From Herbiconiux sp. (GTDB lineage: Bacteria; Actinomycetota; Actinomycetes; Actinomycetales; Microbacteriaceae), in NCBI RefSeq assembly GCF_023264855.1, contig NZ_JAHFUW010000038.1, positions 1 to 44,408 of the forward strand: 44,408 nt of DNA. The letters run 5' to 3'. Under the pieces are notes generated by a model. That model ran no database searches. It was not told the origin of the DNA and saw nothing but the letters and a program-made list of their open reading frames with translations. Below, one piece after another: positions 2,722-12,289 of the stretch (the stretch's first letter is position 1; every line of letters starts with the position of its first letter). Made by a program: the position numbers and the translations under genes.

Positions 2722-4692
2722 GTGGCAACAGGATTCGATCTCTTCACCGACCGGGCCGTCGTGGCCCTGCGGGTCAACGGCGAACTGAAAGATCTTGCGA
2801 CCACGGTGACCGACACGGATGCCGTCGAGCCCGTGACGATCGACAGCCCCGATGGCCTCGCCATCCTGCGCCATTCCGCTGCGCACGTGGCCGCGCAGGC
2901 CGTGCAGGCGATCAACCCGGAGGCGAAGCTCGGTATCGGCCCGCCCGTCACCGACGGCTTCTACTACGACTTCGACGTGGCCGAGCCCTTCACCCCGGAG
3001 GACATGAAGGCGATCGAGAAGGGCATGGAGCGCATCGTGCGGGCCGGCCAGCGCTTCGTGCGCCGAGTCGTCACCGAAGACGAGGCGCGCGCCGAGCTCG
3101 CGAATGAGCCGTACAAGCTCGAGCTGATCGGCCTCAAGGGCGGCAGCGCCGATGAGGGTGGCGACAACGAGTCGGTCGAGGTCGGTGGAGCCGAGCTCAC
3201 CATCTACGACAACGTCGACCCGAAGACCGGCGAGACGGTCTGGAAAGACCTCTGCCGTGGCCCTCACCTGCCGAGCACGCGGATGATCGGCAACGGTTTC
3301 GCGCTCACCCGACTGGCCGCCGCCTACTGGCGCGGCTCGGAGAAGAACAAGCAGCTGCAACGGGTCTACGGCACCGCCTGGCCCACGAAAGACGAGTTGC
3401 GCGCCTACCAGGCCCGCATCGAGGAGGCCGCCAAGCGCGACCACCGCAAGCTCGGCAACGAGCTCGACCTGTTCTCCTTCCCCGACGAGATCGGATCGGG
3501 CCTCGCGGTCTTCCATCCCAAGGGCGGCATCATCCGGGCCGAGATCGAGAACTACCTGCGCGAGCAGCTGATCGCGAACGACTACGAACTGGTGAACACG
3601 CCGCACATCACCAAGGCGCACCTGTTCGAGACCAGCCAGCACCTCAACTGGTACAAAGACGGCATGTTCCCGGCGATGCACCTCGACGAGGAGCAGGATG
3701 CCGACGGCAACATCACCAAGCAGGGCCAGGACTACTACCTGAAGCCCATGAACTGCCCGATGCACAACCTGATCTTCCGGGCGCGCGGCCGCAGCTACCG
3801 CGAGTTGCCGCTGCGGCTGGCCGAATTCGGCACGGTCTACCGCTACGAGAAGAGCGGAACGCTCTCGGGGCTCACCCGAGTGCGGGGCCTCACCCAGGAC
3901 GACGCCCACATCTACGTGTCCCAGAGCGAGGTGCGCGAAGAGCTCACCCGGCAGATCGACTTCATGCTCGACGTGCTGCGCGGCTACGGCCTCGACGACT
4001 TCTACCTCGAGCTGTCCACCCGCGACCCCGAGAAGTCCGTCGGCACCGACGAGATGTGGGAGACCGCCACCGAGACCCTGCGCGAGGTGGCGATCGCCTC
4101 CGGTCTCGAGCTCGTGCCCGATCCGGGGGGAGCGGCCTTCTACGGGCCGAAGATCTCGGTTCAGGCGCGCGACGCGATCGGCCGTACCTGGCAGCTCTCC
4201 ACCATCCAGCTCGACTTCAACCAGCCCGAGCTGTTCGAGCTGGAGTACACGGCGCCGGATGGCACGAAGCAGCAGCCCGTGATGATCCACCGCGCGCTGC
4301 TCGGCTCGATCGAGCGGTTCTTCGCCATCCTGCTCGAGCACTACGCCGGGGCGTTCCCGGTGTGGCTGGCTCCGGTGCAGGTCGTGGCGATCCCGATCTC
4401 CGACGACCACGCCGACTACCTGAACGAGATCGTGTCGCGGCTGAGGAAGCGCGGCATCCGGGCCCAGCTCGACGACTCGTCCGACCGCATGCAGAAGAAG
4501 ATCCGCACCCACACCAAAGACAAGGTGCCCGTGTTGCTGATCGCCGGCAGCGACGACCTGGCGGCCGGTTCGGTTAGCTTCCGCTTCCGCGACGGCTCGC
4601 AGGAGAACGGTGTCGCGGCCGACGAGGCGATCGAACGCATCGTGCGGAGCGTTCAGAATCATCTGCAGGTGAGCACCGCGGGGCAGCTCTGA
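2722..4692 (+). CDS. thrS: Threonyl-tRNA synthetase
   Basis: A cytosolic class II aminoacyl-tRNA synthetase that charges tRNA-Thr. In order there is a short, diverged N-terminal TGS-like segment (about 1-50), the editing domain with HSAAH and CRGPH motifs, the catalytic core with the zinc-ligand segment MNCPMH, motif 2 around [11 protein letters not shown] and RGLTQDDAH, motif 3 around [13 protein letters not shown], and a C-terminal anticodon-binding domain starting near VWLAPVQV. The 656-residue length is normal. The GTG at 2722 is preferred because GCAGGAG ends nine bases before it; an in-frame ATG at 2683 lacks a binding site. The stop overlaps the ATG of the HIT gene by one base (TGATG), so the two are coupled, as in mycobacteria (Rv2614c-Rv2613c). 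Confidence 0.97.
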
Positions 4693-5264
4693 TGGAGCGC
4701 CCGATCGAGGAGTCCGGCGACTTCGCCGGGATCCCGGATGCCTTCCAGCGGCTCTGGACGCCGCACCGGATGGTCTACATCCAGGGCGGCGAGCAGCCGC
4801 ACATCGACGAGTGCCCGTTCTGCCGGGCGCCCTCGCTGAGCGATGAAGAGGGGCTGATCGTGGCGCGCGGAACGCACGCCTACGTGCTGCTGAACCTCTT
4901 TCCGTACAACTCCGGTCACCTGCTGGTGTGCCCGTACCGTCATGTCGCGACCTACGATCTGGCGACGCCGGAGGAGACGCAGGAGATCGCCGAGCTGACG
5001 CAGACCGCGATGCGCGTGCTGACGACGGTGGCGCGCTGCGACGGCTTCAACATCGGGATGAACCAGGGCCGGGTCGCCGGCGCGGGAGTGGCCGGGCACC
5101 TGCACCAGCACATCGTGCCGCGCTGGATGTCGGACTCCAACTTCTTCCCGGTGATCGCCCGCACGAAGGCGCTTCCTCAGCTTCTGGGCGAGGTGCGGGC
5201 CGAGATCCAGGCGGCCTGGCCCGCTTCCGGATCGGCCCCGGCCGGCGGCGTCCCGGCTCTGTGA
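4692..5264 (+). CDS. HIT-family hydrolase, Ap4A-phosphorylase-like
   Basis: A 190-residue histidine-triad protein. The triad HLHQHIV lies at residues 136-142, the middle histidine acting on nucleotide phosphate, and CPFC near residue 40 may bind metal. Length and the flanking sequence GMNQGRVAGAGVAGHLHQH resemble the M. tuberculosis protein Rv2613c, characterised as a diadenosine tetraphosphate phosphorylase. It is translated from an ATG overlapping the thrS stop. The pairing is sensible because aminoacyl-tRNA synthetases make Ap4A as a by-product, which this enzyme would break down in the cytosol. Exact substrate preference (phosphorolysis or hydrolysis) cannot be told from the sequence. In mycobacteria pgsA follows; here jetA does. 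Confidence 0.92.
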   Translation: MERPIEESGDFAGIPDAFQRLWTPHRMVYIQGGEQPHIDECPFCRAPSLSDEEGLIVARGTHAYVLLNLFPYNSGHLLVCPYRHVATYDLATPEETQEIAELTQTAMRVLTTVARCDGFNIGMNQGRVAGAGVAGHLHQHIVPRWMSDSNFFPVIARTKALPQLLGEVRAEIQAAWPASGSAPAGGVPAL

Positions 5265-5299: not shown

Positions 5300-6766
5300 A
5301 TGACAGGATCACGAGCCGAAGCCGCGTATTCCCGCGCGGTGACGGCCTTCACCACGCCCACACTCGACCTGCTGCACGGCCGGTTCGCCCCGTTCGTCGT
5401 GGCCGCTCTGTCGATCGTGTTCACCGCCGACCGCGCATCCGTGGCGATCGCCGACGGGCATGCGGAGCTGTCGGAGATCCTGGACGAGTTGCGGGCGGCC
5501 GGCTATGACGACGACGGTCGCAAGATCCCGGCGGGAACCGGTCGCGACGTCTGCCGCAACTGGGTGCGACTGGGGTGGCTGGTGCAGCAGATCGACGACG
5601 ACGTCGAGGTCTACCGTCTGTCGGCGCACGCCGTCGAAGCGCTGGAGATCGCTGGTCGCACCGGGGCCGGCCGTACACGGGTGTCGAACTCGCGGGTGCG
5701 AACGCTGCTCGAGGCCGTGGAGCATCTCACCGACAGCGCGGAGGCCGATCCGGTGCGCCGGCTCGTCCGCCTGGGCGCCGAGCGCGATGTGCTCGACGCC
5801 GAGATCGCGCGCATCCAGGCGAGCGGATTCGCCGACCCGCTCGACGACGACGAGCTGCTAGAAGAGGCCGAGAACGTCTTGCACCTGGCCCGCGAGCTCC
5901 CCGCCGACTTCACCCGGGTGGCGGAGTCGCTCAGGGCGATGCAGCGGGATGTGGTGGCGTACCTCAGGCGCGACGAGCGACCGACGGGCGAGGTGCTGCG
6001 GGAGTACCTGCAGCGCGCGCAGGACGTCATGCAGGCGACCCCCGAGGGCCGGGCTTTCGCGGGTGCTCTGCGGCTGATCGGCGATCCGGATCGCATCGAC
6101 GCGCTCACCGAGCAGCTGCACGGCCTGCTCCGGCAGCCTTTCGCGCGGCTGCTCGACAGCACCCAGCGCGCCGAGCTCGATGCCATCGGGCGACGGGTGG
6201 AGCTCGGGGTCGAGGAGGTCCTCGCGGCGCAACGCCGGGCCTCGCACGTCATCACCGGTCAGGTGAAGACGCACGATCCGCTGCGCGACCGCCAGATCGA
6301 CGACCTGCTGCGCGACGTCATCGCCGGGCTGCACGCCTGGAGCGGTGCGGGTGCCGTGGAGCCCGTGCGCAGCATGCCTCTGCTGGATCTCGGGCATCTG
6401 CGCCAGGCCGTGAGCGACATCCGGCCGCCCGGGTCGCCGGCACCGCTCACCCAGGCCGTCGACGTCGAGTTCGCCGACGTCGACTCGAGAGCCTGGGGCG
6501 GGCCGCGGTACGCCGAACTCGAGGCGTACGTCGCCGGTCTCGGCGAGGTCTTCGATCTCGCCGCCGCGTTCACCGACGCCGCAGCCGACACCCGCCGCCC
6601 CGTCGACCTCCTCGGACTACTCGAGATCGCCCACCGCAACGGGATGAGCGAGAGCGCCGAGGTGTCGATGGTCGAGGCCGTGCGACCCGACGGCACCACG
6701 CGCCGATTCGCCTTCGCCGCGGTGACGGCACGCACCACGAAAGAGGACGATGAGCATGATGGATGA
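5300..6766 (+). CDS. jetA: JetA/MksF-like kleisin of a Wadjet-type SMC complex (DUF3375)
   Basis: This 488-residue protein matches the DUF3375 family: an N-terminal winged-helix part (residues about 10-110, with [21 protein letters not shown] and RNWVRLGWL), long charged helices in the middle (about 130-340) and a C-terminal winged-helix part (about 370-480). In Wadjet and MksBEF systems this is the MukF-like kleisin that bridges the heads of the SMC ATPase. The start at 5300 fits a leaderless mRNA; an in-frame GTG at 5339 is the alternative. It overlaps jetB by about ten bases and heads the three-gene operon jetA-jetB-jetC. It starts only 35 bases after the HIT gene, although its function is unrelated to thrS-HIT. 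Confidence 0.88.
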
Positions 6767-7418
6767 CGACTTCGGGTCCGAACCGGCGACCGACGACCCG
6801 TTCATCTCGCCGGTGGCGATGGAAGACGATCTCGAGGAGCATTTTCCCGGTGACCGGGGAACCCTCGATCCGGAGGTGCGGCGTGTGCTCGTCCATCTGC
6901 TCCAGCGCCGGTTCCTCGCGGCCGAGCGCCACAAGGCCGAATGGAAGCTGATGCTCGATCACCAGCAGATGATCGAGTCCCGGCTGAACGACCTGTATCT
7001 GCGGCTCGTGATCGACCACTCCCGCGGGTTCGCCTACAAGCAGCAGCTGCGTTCCGACGAGGTCGACATGCCGGTCCTGCTCAAGGATGCTCCCTACTCC
7101 CGGGCGGAGACGCTCGTGCTCGTGCACCTGCGCACCGTCTACCAGCGCGAATCGGCCGCTGGCGAAGCCTCCGTCCGGGTCGACATCGAAGACGTGGAGC
7201 AGACCGTGCTGAGCTACTTCACCGAGGCCGACGGCAGCACCGCCCGGCACCAGAAGGCGATCAGGAACGCCATGGAGCGACTGGATCGCGAAGGCATCGT
7301 CGGCGAGGAGACGAGCGGGCGCTATCGGATCAGTGCTCTCGTCGAGGTCGTCCTCAGTGCGGAGACGCTCAAAGAGCTGCGGGATTGGCTGCGCGAACAG
7401 GAAGTGGTCGCACGATGA
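6756..7418 (+). CDS. jetB: JetB/MksE-like subunit (DUF4194)
   Basis: This protein of about 220 residues has the size, position and helix pattern of DUF4194 proteins, the MukE-like winged-helix subunit that sits on the kleisin in Wadjet/MksBEF complexes. Recognisable parts are an acidic N-terminus (residues 1-30), [20 protein letters not shown] and the two winged helices up to [16 protein letters not shown]. Three ATGs are close together (6750, 6756, 6759); 6756 has the best spacing from AAGAGG at 6741-6746. Its stop overlaps the jetC start in ATGA, showing translational coupling. Its role is structural and regulatory for the ATPase, not enzymatic. Confidence 0.86.
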
Positions 7419-10400
7419 CGATGATCGACACGCTCTTCGGTCTCATCCCGGCGGCGTCGCGCGGGCAGCAGTGGATCGTCGAGGATCTGCAGCTGATCAA
7501 CTGGGGCGGCTACGACGGCGGCCCGCATCTGGTGCGGTTCTCGCCCGGTGCGACGCTGCTCTGTGGCGGGTCGGGCTCCGGCAAGTCGACCATGATGGAC
7601 GCCTACATCGCCCTCATGATGCCCCACACCACGCCGTTCAACGGGGCCTCGAACGGCGGCGTGACCGGCCGGCCCCGCGGCGACGACCAGCGCAACATCC
7701 TGTCGTACGGCCGCGGCAAGATCGACGAGTCGCGCACCGAAGACGGCACGAAGCTGCGCGTGCTCCGCGGCGACGGCGAAGACACGTGGAGTGCGATCGC
7801 AGCCACCTGGCTCGATCACGACGGGTCGCGTTTCACGGCCATCAGGGCCTGGTACATCCCCACCGACGCGCGCACGCTCGACGACACGATCCGGGTGCGC
7901 GCCACCGTCACCGGCGCCTTCGATCTCGGCCGCCTGGAGCAGGCGGCGGCCCAGCGGCTCTCCGATGCCGCCGTTCGAGCGGCCGGCCTGGAGACGCTGG
8001 CCACCGACCGCGAGTTCTCTGCCCGGCTGCATGCGGTTCTCGGGATCGGCGCGGCCGGCTCCGGCGCGAAGGCGATCAGTCTCCTCGCCCGGATCCAGGC
8101 CGGCCAGCAGATCACGACCGTCGACGATCTGTACAAGCGTCTCGTGCTCGAGGAGCCGGAGACGATGGCCATCGCCGATGCGGTGGTCTCCCACTTCGAC
8201 GAACTCGAGAGCACCCGCACGCGGATGCTCACGGCCAAGCAGCAGGTGAACGCGCTCGAGCCGATCCGGGGGATCACGGCGAAGATCGAGGCCGCGGCGG
8301 AGCGCGTGCGCCTGATCGACGAGGTCGGGGTCTTCTCCGAGCCGAGCTCGCCGGCGTCTCTCTGGAGCGCCGAGCGCCGCCTCGGCCTGCTCCGGGAGGT
8401 CGAGATCGAGCTGCGCGCTCGAGCCCGATCCCTGGAGCTCGCGGTGCGCGAGAAGCATGCTCTGATCGAGGCGGCGGATCTCGAGCGCGAGGGACTGCTC
8501 GACGTGCTGCGGCTCTCCGGCGGCGACCGGCTCGAAACCGCCCAGCGCGAGCTCCGGCTGGTGGAGCGCCGTCTCGACGAGGTTCGGCGGGAGCGTGCGA
8601 AGTTTGAAGAGGTCATCCGGGAGCTCGGCGTCGACGTGCAGTCCGCCGCGCAGTTCGAGCGCCTCGTTGCAGGAGACCTGGTGGCCCGGCCGGGTTCCGG
8701 GGTGCGCCAGGCCCGGGCCGTGTTCGCCGAGGCGGAATCCGAACGCCGGGCGGCCGACGCGGAGCGGCTGCGTGTGCAGAAGGAGCGGGACACCGCCAGC
8801 CGGATGCGGGGCAGCATCCCGCCCGCGCTCGACGAGACACGCAGGCTCCTGGCGCACGCGGCCGGGCTCGACCCCTCCGACCTCCCGTTCGTGGGCGAGC
8901 TGGTCGAGGTGCGCACCGAGTTCGAGCCGTGGCGGGAGGCGTTCAACCTCGCCCTCGGGGGATTCGCCAGAACCCTGCTGATCGATGCCTCCCAGCTCGA
9001 CGCCTTCCGGGCCGCCATCAACTCGGTCCGCACGCAGGAGAGGCTGAACTACGAGGGAGTCCACACCGGGCTCGCCGAGATCACGACCCTCGACGCGAGC
9101 ACGCTGCCGGGGCGCCTCGACTACCGGTCGACGCCTTTCACCGGGTGGCTCCAGCAGCGGCTCACCGATCGCTTCGGGTTCGTCTGCGTCGACGCCTCGT
9201 CGCAGCTCGGCCGGCATCAGAAGGCGCTCACGATCACCGGGCAGGTCTCGCGCGGGAGCCGGGGCGCGCACGGCGGTCAGGGGCGCGGCAACGTGCTCGG
9301 CTTCTCCAACGTGCGCCGCCTCCGCGAGCTCGACGACCACGTGCAGCGCCTGACCGACCGTCTCGACACCGCCGCGCGCGCCGCGCACGACGCCGACATC
9401 GCGCTGGACCACCTGGCGGCTCGCTCGACGGCGTTCGCGAAGATCGAAGACCTCACCTGGGAACAGATCGACGTCGACACGGTCGTGGCCGAACGCGAGC
9501 GCTGGCTCGCCGTCGAAACCGAGGTGACGGCGGCCAACCCCGAGATCGCCCACCTCACCGAGCAGGCCGAGGAGTGCAAGACCCGGGCCGCACGGCTCCG
9601 CGCCGAGGAGGCGCGACTGGCCGCCGACCTCGCTCAGAGCAAGGAGCGCTGGGGGTCCGTGACGGATGAGGTCGACGCCTGCCAGCGTGTGATCGACGAC
9701 GCCGACGCCGGGGGAGTGACGCTCGGCGACGGGCACGCCTCGTTCCTCGACGACCGTTTTCTCGACGTGGCCGCCGACGGCACCTCGTCCGCGGGGGAAC
9801 GGCTCGCCCACCTCGACACCGCGCTCCGCACGGCGGCGCAGCGGCTCGGCGACGATCGCCGGGCCGCCTCCGACGCCCACCAGGAACAGCGCGAGAGCAT
9901 GCGCCGGCTGATGAGCGGATTCGTGGAGCGCTGGGACAGCCTGACCGTCGTGCCCGATCCCGACGAGTCGGTGGCCGAGTTCGAGAGCATCCTCGAAGCC
10001 CTGGAGACCAGCGGGCTGCACGAGCTCGAGACCGAATGGCGCGACAGCCTGCTGAAGCTGTCGGGCAACGATCTCACCAGTCTGGATTCCACCCTCGCCC
10101 GCTCGCTGCGGGAGATCAAGGACCGCATCGATCCGATCAACCGCATCATGGAGGAACTGCCCTTCTACGACGATCGCCACCGGCTGCAGATCGCGCCGCG
10201 CGAGAACCAGTCCGAGGCCCGCAAGCGCTTCCGGCGGGAGCTGCGCGAGGTGCGCGCCCTGATCGAGGCCGCCTCGACCGACACGGATCGCGAGAACGCC
10301 TACCGGCGGATGAGCCGCCTGATCGGCCGGATGCGGCGCTCGGCGCCCGACTTCGCCGAACTCATCGACGTGCGCAACCACGTGCGCGTGAGTGCGGAGC

Positions 10401-10774
10401 GGATCGACGCCCAGACGCGGGAGCACGTCGCGCTCTATGACCACATCGGCGAGAAGTCCGGCGGCGAGTCGCAGGAGCTGGTCGCATTCATCGTCGGCGC
10501 CGCGCTGCGCTACCAGCTCGGTGACGCGGGGGCGCCCCGGCCGCGCTACGCGCCGGTGTTCATGGACGAAGCGCTGATCAAGGCGGATGCGCACTTCACA
10601 AAGCGGGCGATCGGCGCCTGGCGCGGCCTCGGCTTCCAGCTCGTCATCGGCGCCCCGAACGACAAGTACAGCGCCATCGAGCCGCACGTCGATGTGGAGT
10701 ACACCATCCTCAAAGACACTCAAGGTCGCTCCTGGGCGAAGGCCAAGGTCGGTCTCCCGGAGCCCGCGCGCTGA
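7415..10774 (+). CDS. jetC: JetC/MksB-like SMC ATPase of a Wadjet-type system
   Basis: A 1119-residue SMC-like ATPase. The Walker A motif GGSGSGKST lies at residues 51-59 with lysine 57, an ABC signature SGGES starts at 1015, and Walker B VFMDEA lies at about 1048-1053 with the catalytic glutamate at 1052. Between them are two long heptad-like charged regions (about 270-470 and 640-900) flanking a hinge-like segment with RSSHDR-like absence of catalytic motifs, as in MukB-type condensins. In Wadjet systems JetABC extrudes DNA loops on small circular DNA and JetD then cuts it. It starts in ATGA overlap with jetB (a second ATG is at 7421). No jetD gene follows: the next gene, 58 bases downstream, is yebC. 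Confidence 0.9.
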
Positions 10775-10787
10775 AACGGGCGCGGGC
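10762..10787 (+). terminator. Possible hairpin terminator after jetC
   Basis: GCCCGCGC pairs perfectly with GCGCGGGC across a ten-base loop that contains the jetC stop codon. The bases after it (GGCCTTCTCG) are only weakly T-rich, so termination efficiency is uncertain. Confidence 0.45.
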
Positions 10788-10799
10788 GGCCTTCTCGCG

Positions 10800-10805
10800 T
10801 AGACT
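10800..10805 (+). promoter_or_regulatory. Possible -10 element for yebC
   Basis: TAGACT lies 27 bases before the yebC GTG, after the jetC hairpin. There is no matching -35, so this rests on the hexamer and its position. Confidence 0.35.
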
Positions 10806-10832
10806 TGACCGAGATTCCTGAAGGAGATTTTC

Positions 10833-11591
10833 GTGTCCGGACATTCCAAGTGGGCGACGACCAAGCACAAGAAGGCGATCATCGATTCGCGCCGTGCCAA
10901 GTCGTTCGCGAAGCTGATCAAGAACATCGAGGTCGCAGCCAAGATGGGCGGCGCCGACATGGCCGGTAACCCCACCCTGGTCGACGCGGTGCAGAAGGCG
11001 AAGAAGACCTCTGTTCCGATCGACAACATCAATCGCGCGGTCAAGCGCGGCGCGGGGCTCACCGGTGAGTCGATCGATTACCAGACGATCATCTACGAGG
11101 CCTACGGCCCGAACGGCATCGCGCTGCTGGTGGAGTGCCTCACCGACAACAAGAACCGTGCGGCCGCAGACGTCCGTACCGTGATGTCGCGCAACGGCGG
11201 CACCCTGGCCGACCCCGGCAGCGTGGCCTACAACTTCGCCCGCAAGGGCGTCATCACCGTCGCGCACGCCGACGGCATCACCGAGGACGACGTGCTCGCC
11301 GCCGTGCTCGACGCCGGGGCCGAAGAGGTCACCGACCGCGGTGAGTCCTTCGAGGTGCTCACCGAGCCCTCCTCGATGGTGGCCGCCCGTGCCGCCCTGC
11401 AGGAGGCCGGGATCGACTACGACTCCGCCGACGTGGAGTTCGTGGCGAGCCTGCAGGTCGAGGCCGACGCCGAGACCGCACGCAAGGTGTTCCGCCTGAT
11501 CGACGCCCTCGAAGACTCCGACGACGTGCAGAACGTGTACACGAACATCGACATCACGCCCGAGGTGCAGGCCGAGCTCGAACAGGACTGA
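10833..11591 (+). CDS. yebC: YebC/TACO1-family protein
   Basis: A 252-residue member of the YebC/TACO1 family, recognisable from its start [20 protein letters not shown], the basic first domain, [20 protein letters not shown] in the middle and the acidic C-terminal part. Family members include DNA-binding regulators and ribosome-associated factors that help translate proline stretches; which applies here is not visible. The GTG start follows AAGGAG with good spacing. yebC precedes ruvCAB in many bacteria, as here (77 bases to ruvC). In mycobacteria pdxT lies before yebC; here jetC does. Confidence 0.95.
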
Positions 11592-11668
11592 GCTCCGCAC
11601 CCCACCTCATCACCCAGCACCTCACCACATCGATCAGACGCAGGCCGGCGCGAGAAAGAAGAGAGTGG

Positions 11669-12289
11669 ATGCGAGTCCTCGGAATCGATCCTGGCCTGAC
11701 CCGCTGCGGCGTGGGCATCGTCGACGTCTCGGCGACGCGCAAACCGGTGCTGGTGCACGTCTCGGTCATCACGACCGGCACGGAACTCGCGCTCGAGGAG
11801 CGCCTGCTGATCGTCTCCCGGGGGATCGAGGCGCTGCTGGACGAGCACCGGCCCGACACCGTCGCGGTCGAGCGCGTCTTCGCGCAGCACAACGTGCGCA
11901 CGGTGATGGGCACGGCCCAGGTGAGCGGGATCGCGCTGCTCGCCGCCGCGCGCCGCTCACTGCCCGTGGGGCTGCACACGCCCAGCGAGGTGAAGGCCGC
12001 GATCACCGGGTACGGGCAGGCCGACAAGAAGCAGGTCGGCGCGATGGTGGCCAAGGTACTGCGGCTCGAGAGCGTTCCCAAGCCGGCGGACGCGGCCGAC
12101 GCGCTGGCTCTGGCGATCTGTCACGCGTGGCGGGTTCCGCTCGGCGCGGCCGTCACCGGAGCGACCAGCGGATCGACGCTGCCGCGCACCGCGGTCGACC
12201 GTTCGGCGCTCACTCCGGCACAGGAGGCGTGGCGCGCCGCCGAGCAAGGCACAGCCCGGCGCACCGCCGCCCATAGGCTGGTTCGATGA
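11669..12289 (+). CDS. ruvC: Holliday junction resolvase RuvC
   Basis: RuvC is a dimeric magnesium-dependent nuclease that cuts Holliday junctions during recombinational repair. The four acidic catalytic positions can be placed: Asp7 in [10 protein letters not shown], the glutamate of VAVERVF near 70, and the aspartates in [15 protein letters not shown] near 140-145. At 206 residues it is longer than the usual 170-190 because of a C-terminal tail (about 165-206) of no known function. The ATG at 11669 follows GAAGAGAG. Its stop overlaps the ruvA start in ATGA. Confidence 0.96.
12274..12279 (+). promoter_or_regulatory. Probable internal -10 element for leaderless ruvA
   Basis: TAGGCT lies inside the 3' end of ruvC and is followed by six bases and the ruvA ATG at 12286. 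This fits the leaderless pattern and would give ruvAB an additional start independent of ruvC. Confidence 0.45.

Follow-up and report, generated by a model that had tools for sequence, protein, structure and literature searches.

What can a Wadjet-type SMC complex be for when its genome holds no JetD nuclease? The type I Wadjet system (JetABCD) is the same as MksBEFG in Corynebacterium glutamicum and EptABCD in Mycobacterium smegmatis. JetABC is reported to be a dimeric loop-extruding motor, with JetD cutting once the circle is fully extruded (PMC10586767, PMC12647877), and plasmid suppression in Bacillus subtilis is reported to need all four subunits (PMC10586767). The window, by which is meant the whole 44,408-nucleotide stretch of DNA from a Herbiconiux species that was analysed, carries the genes of the motor. 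A previous reading made from the letters of the DNA (the sequence-only reading) noted that jetD is missing from it, and offered, with no preference among them, three uses for the remaining complex: to organise the chromosome, to recruit a nuclease encoded elsewhere or to use a new effector.

The operon comprises three genes on the + strand, overlapping as the sequence-only reading had described and now confirmed by coordinates, Pfam and PADLOC. Starting at the 5′ end, jetA (5300–6766) encodes an mksF-like kleisin of the DUF3375 family (488 aa from the given start; 346.9 bits against a Pfam cut-off of 28.6). After an overlap of 17 bp the operon continues as jetB (6750–7418), encoding an mksE-like KITE subunit of 222 aa that matches DUF4194 with 131.7 bits (cut-off 32.7), and after a further overlap of 4 bp (ATGA) as jetC (7415–10774), encoding an mksB-like SMC ATPase of 1119 aa with matches to SbcC_Walker_B (74.3 bits) and AAA_29 (69.4 bits). 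The PADLOC type I Wadjet models are matched at near-full model coverage by each protein (JetA1 700.1, JetB1 371.2 and JetC1 1651.7 bits). The PDB matches of JetC are solved JetC chains at near-full length (8dk2, E 1.8e-42; 8as8, 3.5e-42; and 9qxt), and those of JetB are solved JetB chains (9qxt, 8as8 and 8dk1). A motif check found the Walker A motif, the signature (KSGGESQEL) and the Walker B motif (APVFMDEA) of JetC all intact, as had been read. The operon is flanked upstream by a HIT-domain gene that lies outside the system (4692–5264, + strand, Pfam) and ends 35 bp before jetA, and downstream by yebC (10833–11591, + strand, Pfam). The latter does begin 58 bases past the jetC stop, and the gap (10775–10832) occupies the position at which jetD starts in JetD-bearing relatives. 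The hairpin that had been described 3′ of jetC was considered as a terminator and rejected. It folds no better than shuffled sequence (z = -1.05; 30 of 200 shuffled versions do as well or better), and a terminator scan found no terminator-like site on the + strand, so the hairpin carries no evidential weight. An open frame of 1246 aa runs antisense to jetC (7322–11062, - strand), and is probably a shadow of the high G+C coding sequence. Four tRNA genes (Val, Gly, Cys and Val) lie at 1561–2088, some 3 kb upstream of jetA.

The absence of JetD from the window is confirmed, and extends to the whole host genome (4.37 Mb in 97 contigs, 95.01% complete). Neither JetD_C (PF09983) nor DUF3322 (PF11795) has a match anywhere in this assembly; both models do find their target in C. 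glutamicum, used as the control. A profile built from an alignment of 11 JetD proteins of relatives gave no match in the host genome either, and tblastn with 36 JetD proteins found no jetD remnant in the 58 bp that separate jetC from yebC. Had a standard jetD lain at another site in the genome, it would have spoken against the sequence-only reading; the two Pfam models and the profile found none. Within the limits of the assembly a standard JetD acting in trans is excluded.

Comparison with relatives shows that jetABC without jetD is recurrent. JetC relatives occur at 106 places in 398 genomes of the family, leaving out seven short JetC pieces (45–131 aa) and merging split pieces by their coordinates in G072, G110, G118, G162, G185 and G270. 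Sixty-two of the 106 places have no adjacent JetD; 53 of these are in genomes without any JetD match, and nine in genomes with a JetD match elsewhere. JetD lies directly downstream at 4 of 19 places in the window's own clade (61–100% identity), at 3 of 38 in the next band (35–39%) and at 37 of 49 in the remaining band (25–32%). Seven of the 12 JetD-less places of this last band are on the JetC tree, all in one clade with the JetD-bearing genome G367. In genus g50 every species (7/7) carries JetC at 91–100% identity, and a JetD match is found in none. Among the best 80 of 118 GTDB relatives, judged with a trimmed JetD model, JetD is absent from 49 loci, present in 26 and broken in one, while four (L126, L144, L147 and L152) are undecidable as their contigs end soon after jetC. 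The 36 Microbacterium loci among these best 80 of 118 comprise 33 without JetD, one with a broken copy (M. helvum) and two that are unjudgeable; JetD is present in 9 of 11 loci of Actinomadura, 6 of 7 of Actinoplanes and 3 of 3 of Microbispora in the same set. A phylum-wide draw of 396 genomes gave 18 DUF3375 places above the cut-off. JetD is nearby at eight of them and not at ten, and none was found in the stretches read around those ten. In the Wadjet branch to which the window belongs, JetD-less is thus the commoner state and one with many separate origins, which the sequence-only reading had not noticed.

Further JetD-less DUF3375 operons were seen in other genera of the Actinomycetota (L191 and L193–L197), with distant JetC proteins (around 600 bits against the window-clade profile). 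Matches of the JetD profile at model positions 1–62 in ten loci, JetD-less or JetD-bearing, are an artefact, because the start of the first JetD query was over-long and crossed jetC in another frame.

The direction of change can be read from the trees and from what is left behind jetC. On a JetC tree of 132 rows (128 scored) there are at least 15 changes between the JetD and no-JetD states, or 20 losses if no regain of JetD is allowed; the tree holds two genomes twice, at zero branch lengths and with contigs of equal length (G305 = L119 and G333 = L148). The JetD proteins of the window's clade fall together with those of the sister clade in a single group (support 100/99), as do the JetC proteins of the two, so that JetD is ancestral there. 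Comparison of JetD-less loci with their nearest JetD-bearing kin revealed a series of scars. Sphaerisporangium rufum (L188) keeps an in-register N-terminal stub of jetD, Pseudosporangium (L183) two separated pieces of the gene and Actinoplanes palleronii (L175) some 43 bp, while Actinomadura litoris (L162) has, close behind jetC, the flank that follows jetD in L190. In L130 jetD is broken into two frames. No jetD remains were found on comparison with kin in Nocardia L182 or in L053 (G118). When 36 JetD proteins were searched by tblastn against the sequence 3′ of jetC in 97 loci without an intact JetD, clear remains were found only in L130 and L188. Matches in L076, L140 and L131 (E 0.02–0.05) are at chance level, and an apparent C-terminal JetD relic in L086 was rejected, as the stretch is flank common to L085. 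From these comparisons jetD appears to have been lost, and not gained, in most cases. Genus g55 may be an exception. In G367 the JetD gene is located between jetC and a syntenic flank, G190 and G313 being without it, and JetD may have been gained in G367 rather than lost in the others, because the G367 protein occupies a long branch in another part of the JetD tree, apart from the relatives of its JetC.

Three loci of one genus (L085, L086 and L087) share about 18 kb of synteny, and what follows jetC is jetD, some 40 bp, or a 1.5-kb transporter-like gene; they form a natural presence/absence series for jetD. Inspected by eye, the 1.5-kb gene that separates jetC from the flank in L087 reads as a frame for an MFS-like transporter.

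Coding sequences of jetABC without JetD bear the marks of constraint. For chosen close pairs, dN/dS was calculated by the Nei–Gojobori method with a custom script. For JetC it is 0.058–0.258 in 22 JetD-less pairs and 0.104–0.266 in four JetD-bearing pairs; between the window and its nearest relative (L111) it is 0.108 for JetA, 0.106 for JetB and 0.164 for JetC. Among JetD-less pairs the ratio peaks at 0.451, for JetA of G035/G110. These ratios indicate that jetABC is under purifying selection in the absence of JetD and, with the intact motifs, make an inactive jetC, the other finding that would have undermined the sequence-only reading, unlikely. Fifty-one positions of JetA, JetB and JetC are conserved in JetD-bearing rows and variable in JetD-less ones; they form no clear cluster, and the JetD-less rows are more variable overall.

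JetC is found in 3 of 16 genomes of the window's genus, so that jetABC looks accessory there rather than housekeeping. The window's JetC lies inside a JetD-less Microbacterium group in the tree (in sets of 10, 14 and 15 rows, none of which has JetD) and apart from G159 and G162, the other two carriers in the genus, where the operon sits elsewhere. In three of the 15 other genus genomes (G011, G159 and G162) the HIT gene directly precedes yebC with no jetABC in between; in the other 12, the 1.5 kb read upstream of yebC showed neither HIT nor thrS. Four Microbacterium loci (L117, L118, L120 and L122) also have jetABC between HIT and yebC, together with other genes. Most simply, the operon would have been without JetD already when it was acquired by, or exchanged into, this genome, in which case jetABC would travel and persist without JetD. 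Plasmid and phage matches are limited to three plasmid records (31–38% identity) and one phage record (29%), none of the window's clade.

Taken together, we consider it reasonably probable (roughly 0.6) that this jetABC encodes an SMC complex derived from type I Wadjet, whose lineage lost JetD before the operon arrived in the genome, and that it is kept because it is useful alone. The motor is likely to serve a purpose that requires no DNA cleavage. By analogy with the family, JetABC would bind DNA and reel it in by ATP-driven loop extrusion, and the extruded DNA would then be compacted, bridged or held instead of being cut. The likely outcome would be either a nuclease-free organisation of the chromosome, as for Pseudomonas aeruginosa MksBEF, or control of small circular DNA, the expression, copy number or inheritance of which could be lowered without cleavage. 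Such an organising or plasmid-controlling motor is favoured because extrusion in the family runs before JetD cuts, and because of the P. aeruginosa precedent. Chromosome and small circles are both compatible targets, as the sequence does not separate the two. Against this reading stand the accessory look of the operon in its genus, the jetB genes split in two relatives, the lone JetD-less tips, the possible gain in g55 and the conserved N-terminal segment of JetB, as well as the report that C. glutamicum MksBEFG, which has its nuclease, acts on plasmids and has no role in chromosome organisation (PMC7083940).

A more specific form of this reading is tentative, and we would put it well short of an even chance. 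The branch might constitute a separate nuclease-free immune or DNA-control system that still picks out small circles by extruding them fully and then silences, traps or mis-segregates them uncut, in the manner proposed for the silencing of extrachromosomal DNA by Smc5/6, or hands them to a new effector with its gene elsewhere. If the branch were such a system, the loss of a risky nuclease would be a repeated adaptive switch and not decay.

Somewhat less probable again is that JetD has been replaced by an unrelated effector (a nuclease, topoisomerase or other protein) encoded elsewhere, which JetABC still loads onto extruded circles. The N-terminal segment of JetB is conserved in both JetD-bearing and JetD-less forms, as would be expected if another partner were bound there; an N-terminal IFDR motif is reported to mediate the contact of type I JetB with JetD (PMC10586767), although that motif could not be mapped onto the proteins here. 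Purifying selection equal in strength to that of JetD-bearing pairs is also consistent with a replacement. In seven Microbacterium loci jetC is followed 3′ by a 166-aa gene that has no Pfam match and by one for topoisomerase IB (L112, L113, L115, L116, L146, L150 and L123, where the pair is at 10382–11965 and begins 10 bp after jetC). However, this pair is limited to one syntenic Microbacterium group. Moreover, when the 1234 genes lying up to 7 kb from jetABC were clustered (blastp E 1e-8, 30% identity, 60% coverage) and the top 25 clusters inspected, JetD was the only family adjoining jetABC across many genera (33 loci, 32 of them JetD-bearing and one broken). The ten cluster members that were scanned are ordinary (MFS transporter, LacI regulator, ABC transporter, dehydrogenase, RsfS and the like) or have no Pfam match. 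No common replacement gene was seen near JetD-less operons within 7 kb at these blastp limits, and the new effector offered by the sequence-only reading thus has no recurring candidate around the loci examined.

That the operon is a decaying remnant of Wadjet is improbable. Decay would account for the jetD scars in several relatives, for the patchy presence of the operon in the genus, and for jetB being split into two frames in 2 of 35 JetD-less family loci (G135 and G273; L051 10368–11062 and L076 5653–6818), where either decay or sequencing error could be the cause. Lone JetD-less tips beside JetD-bearing sisters may indeed be dying systems. In the window, however, frames and motifs are intact, JetC dN/dS in JetD-less pairs is far below 1 and similar to that of JetD-bearing pairs, the JetD-less Microbacterium clade has a long shared history, and the operon's JetC is retained throughout genus g50.

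It is very improbable that a JetD is present and was missed, either in the unassembled part of the genome (97 contigs at 95.01% completeness leave some room for this) or through divergence beyond the reach of the models. Against this, yebC follows jetC on the same contig, and the JetD profile is silent in 36 of 36 JetD-less carriers, the host included, and matches in both of two JetD-bearing controls; these 36 are a subset of the 53 places without any JetD in the genome, and several are assembled in one or two contigs. Least probable of all is that JetABC borrows the JetD of a second Wadjet system in the same genome, since the nine of 62 JetD-less places with a JetD match elsewhere, mostly beside another JetC, are set against 53, the window included, without one.

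Compared with type I Wadjet, the operon has the same three subunits, gene order and overlaps and matches the same PADLOC models, and differs in lacking the JetD Toprim nuclease in both operon (where yebC follows jetC) and genome. JetABC without JetD is as such already known. Sets of JetABC/MukFEB that lack JetD are filed by PADLOC as 'other' (PMC9252829), and a JetA-JetB-JetC match is listed beside a full system in Paenarthrobacter lasiusi (PMC11719660). The PADLOC class ('wadjet_other') likewise holds JetABC without JetD, but it is a bookkeeping class that makes no claim on function or common descent. Searches of the open-access literature listed nothing on repeated JetD loss in the Actinomycetota. 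JetABC-only finds may not be broken defence systems, and some caution in their annotation is warranted.

MukBEF, which replaces Smc-ScpAB in enterobacteria (PMC10586767), has the same architecture of SMC ATPase, kleisin and KITE subunits without a nuclease. The MukB, MukE and MukF Pfam models, in contrast, have no match to JetA, JetB or JetC of the window at E 0.001. It has been proposed that the nuclease-free chromosome organisers MksBEF and MukBEF descend from Wadjet-type defence, a switch that is ancient and hard to study. The closest precedent for the operon in the window is MksBEF of P. aeruginosa PAO1, a three-gene, nuclease-free SMC complex (PMC7485682); the operon in the window likewise encodes three subunits and no MksG/JetD. 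The sequence relation seen here is a weak match of JetB to the Pfam MksE model (33.9 bits, cut-off 27), with DUF4194 far better. The present case differs from P. aeruginosa in the many losses within the Actinomycetota, the surviving JetD-bearing sisters and the deletion scars. Nuclease loss has occurred many times here among close relatives, where JetD-bearing sisters and scars stand next to long-lived JetD-less clades, and because the loss recurs in this setting the role of an SMC defence motor after its cutter has gone becomes testable.
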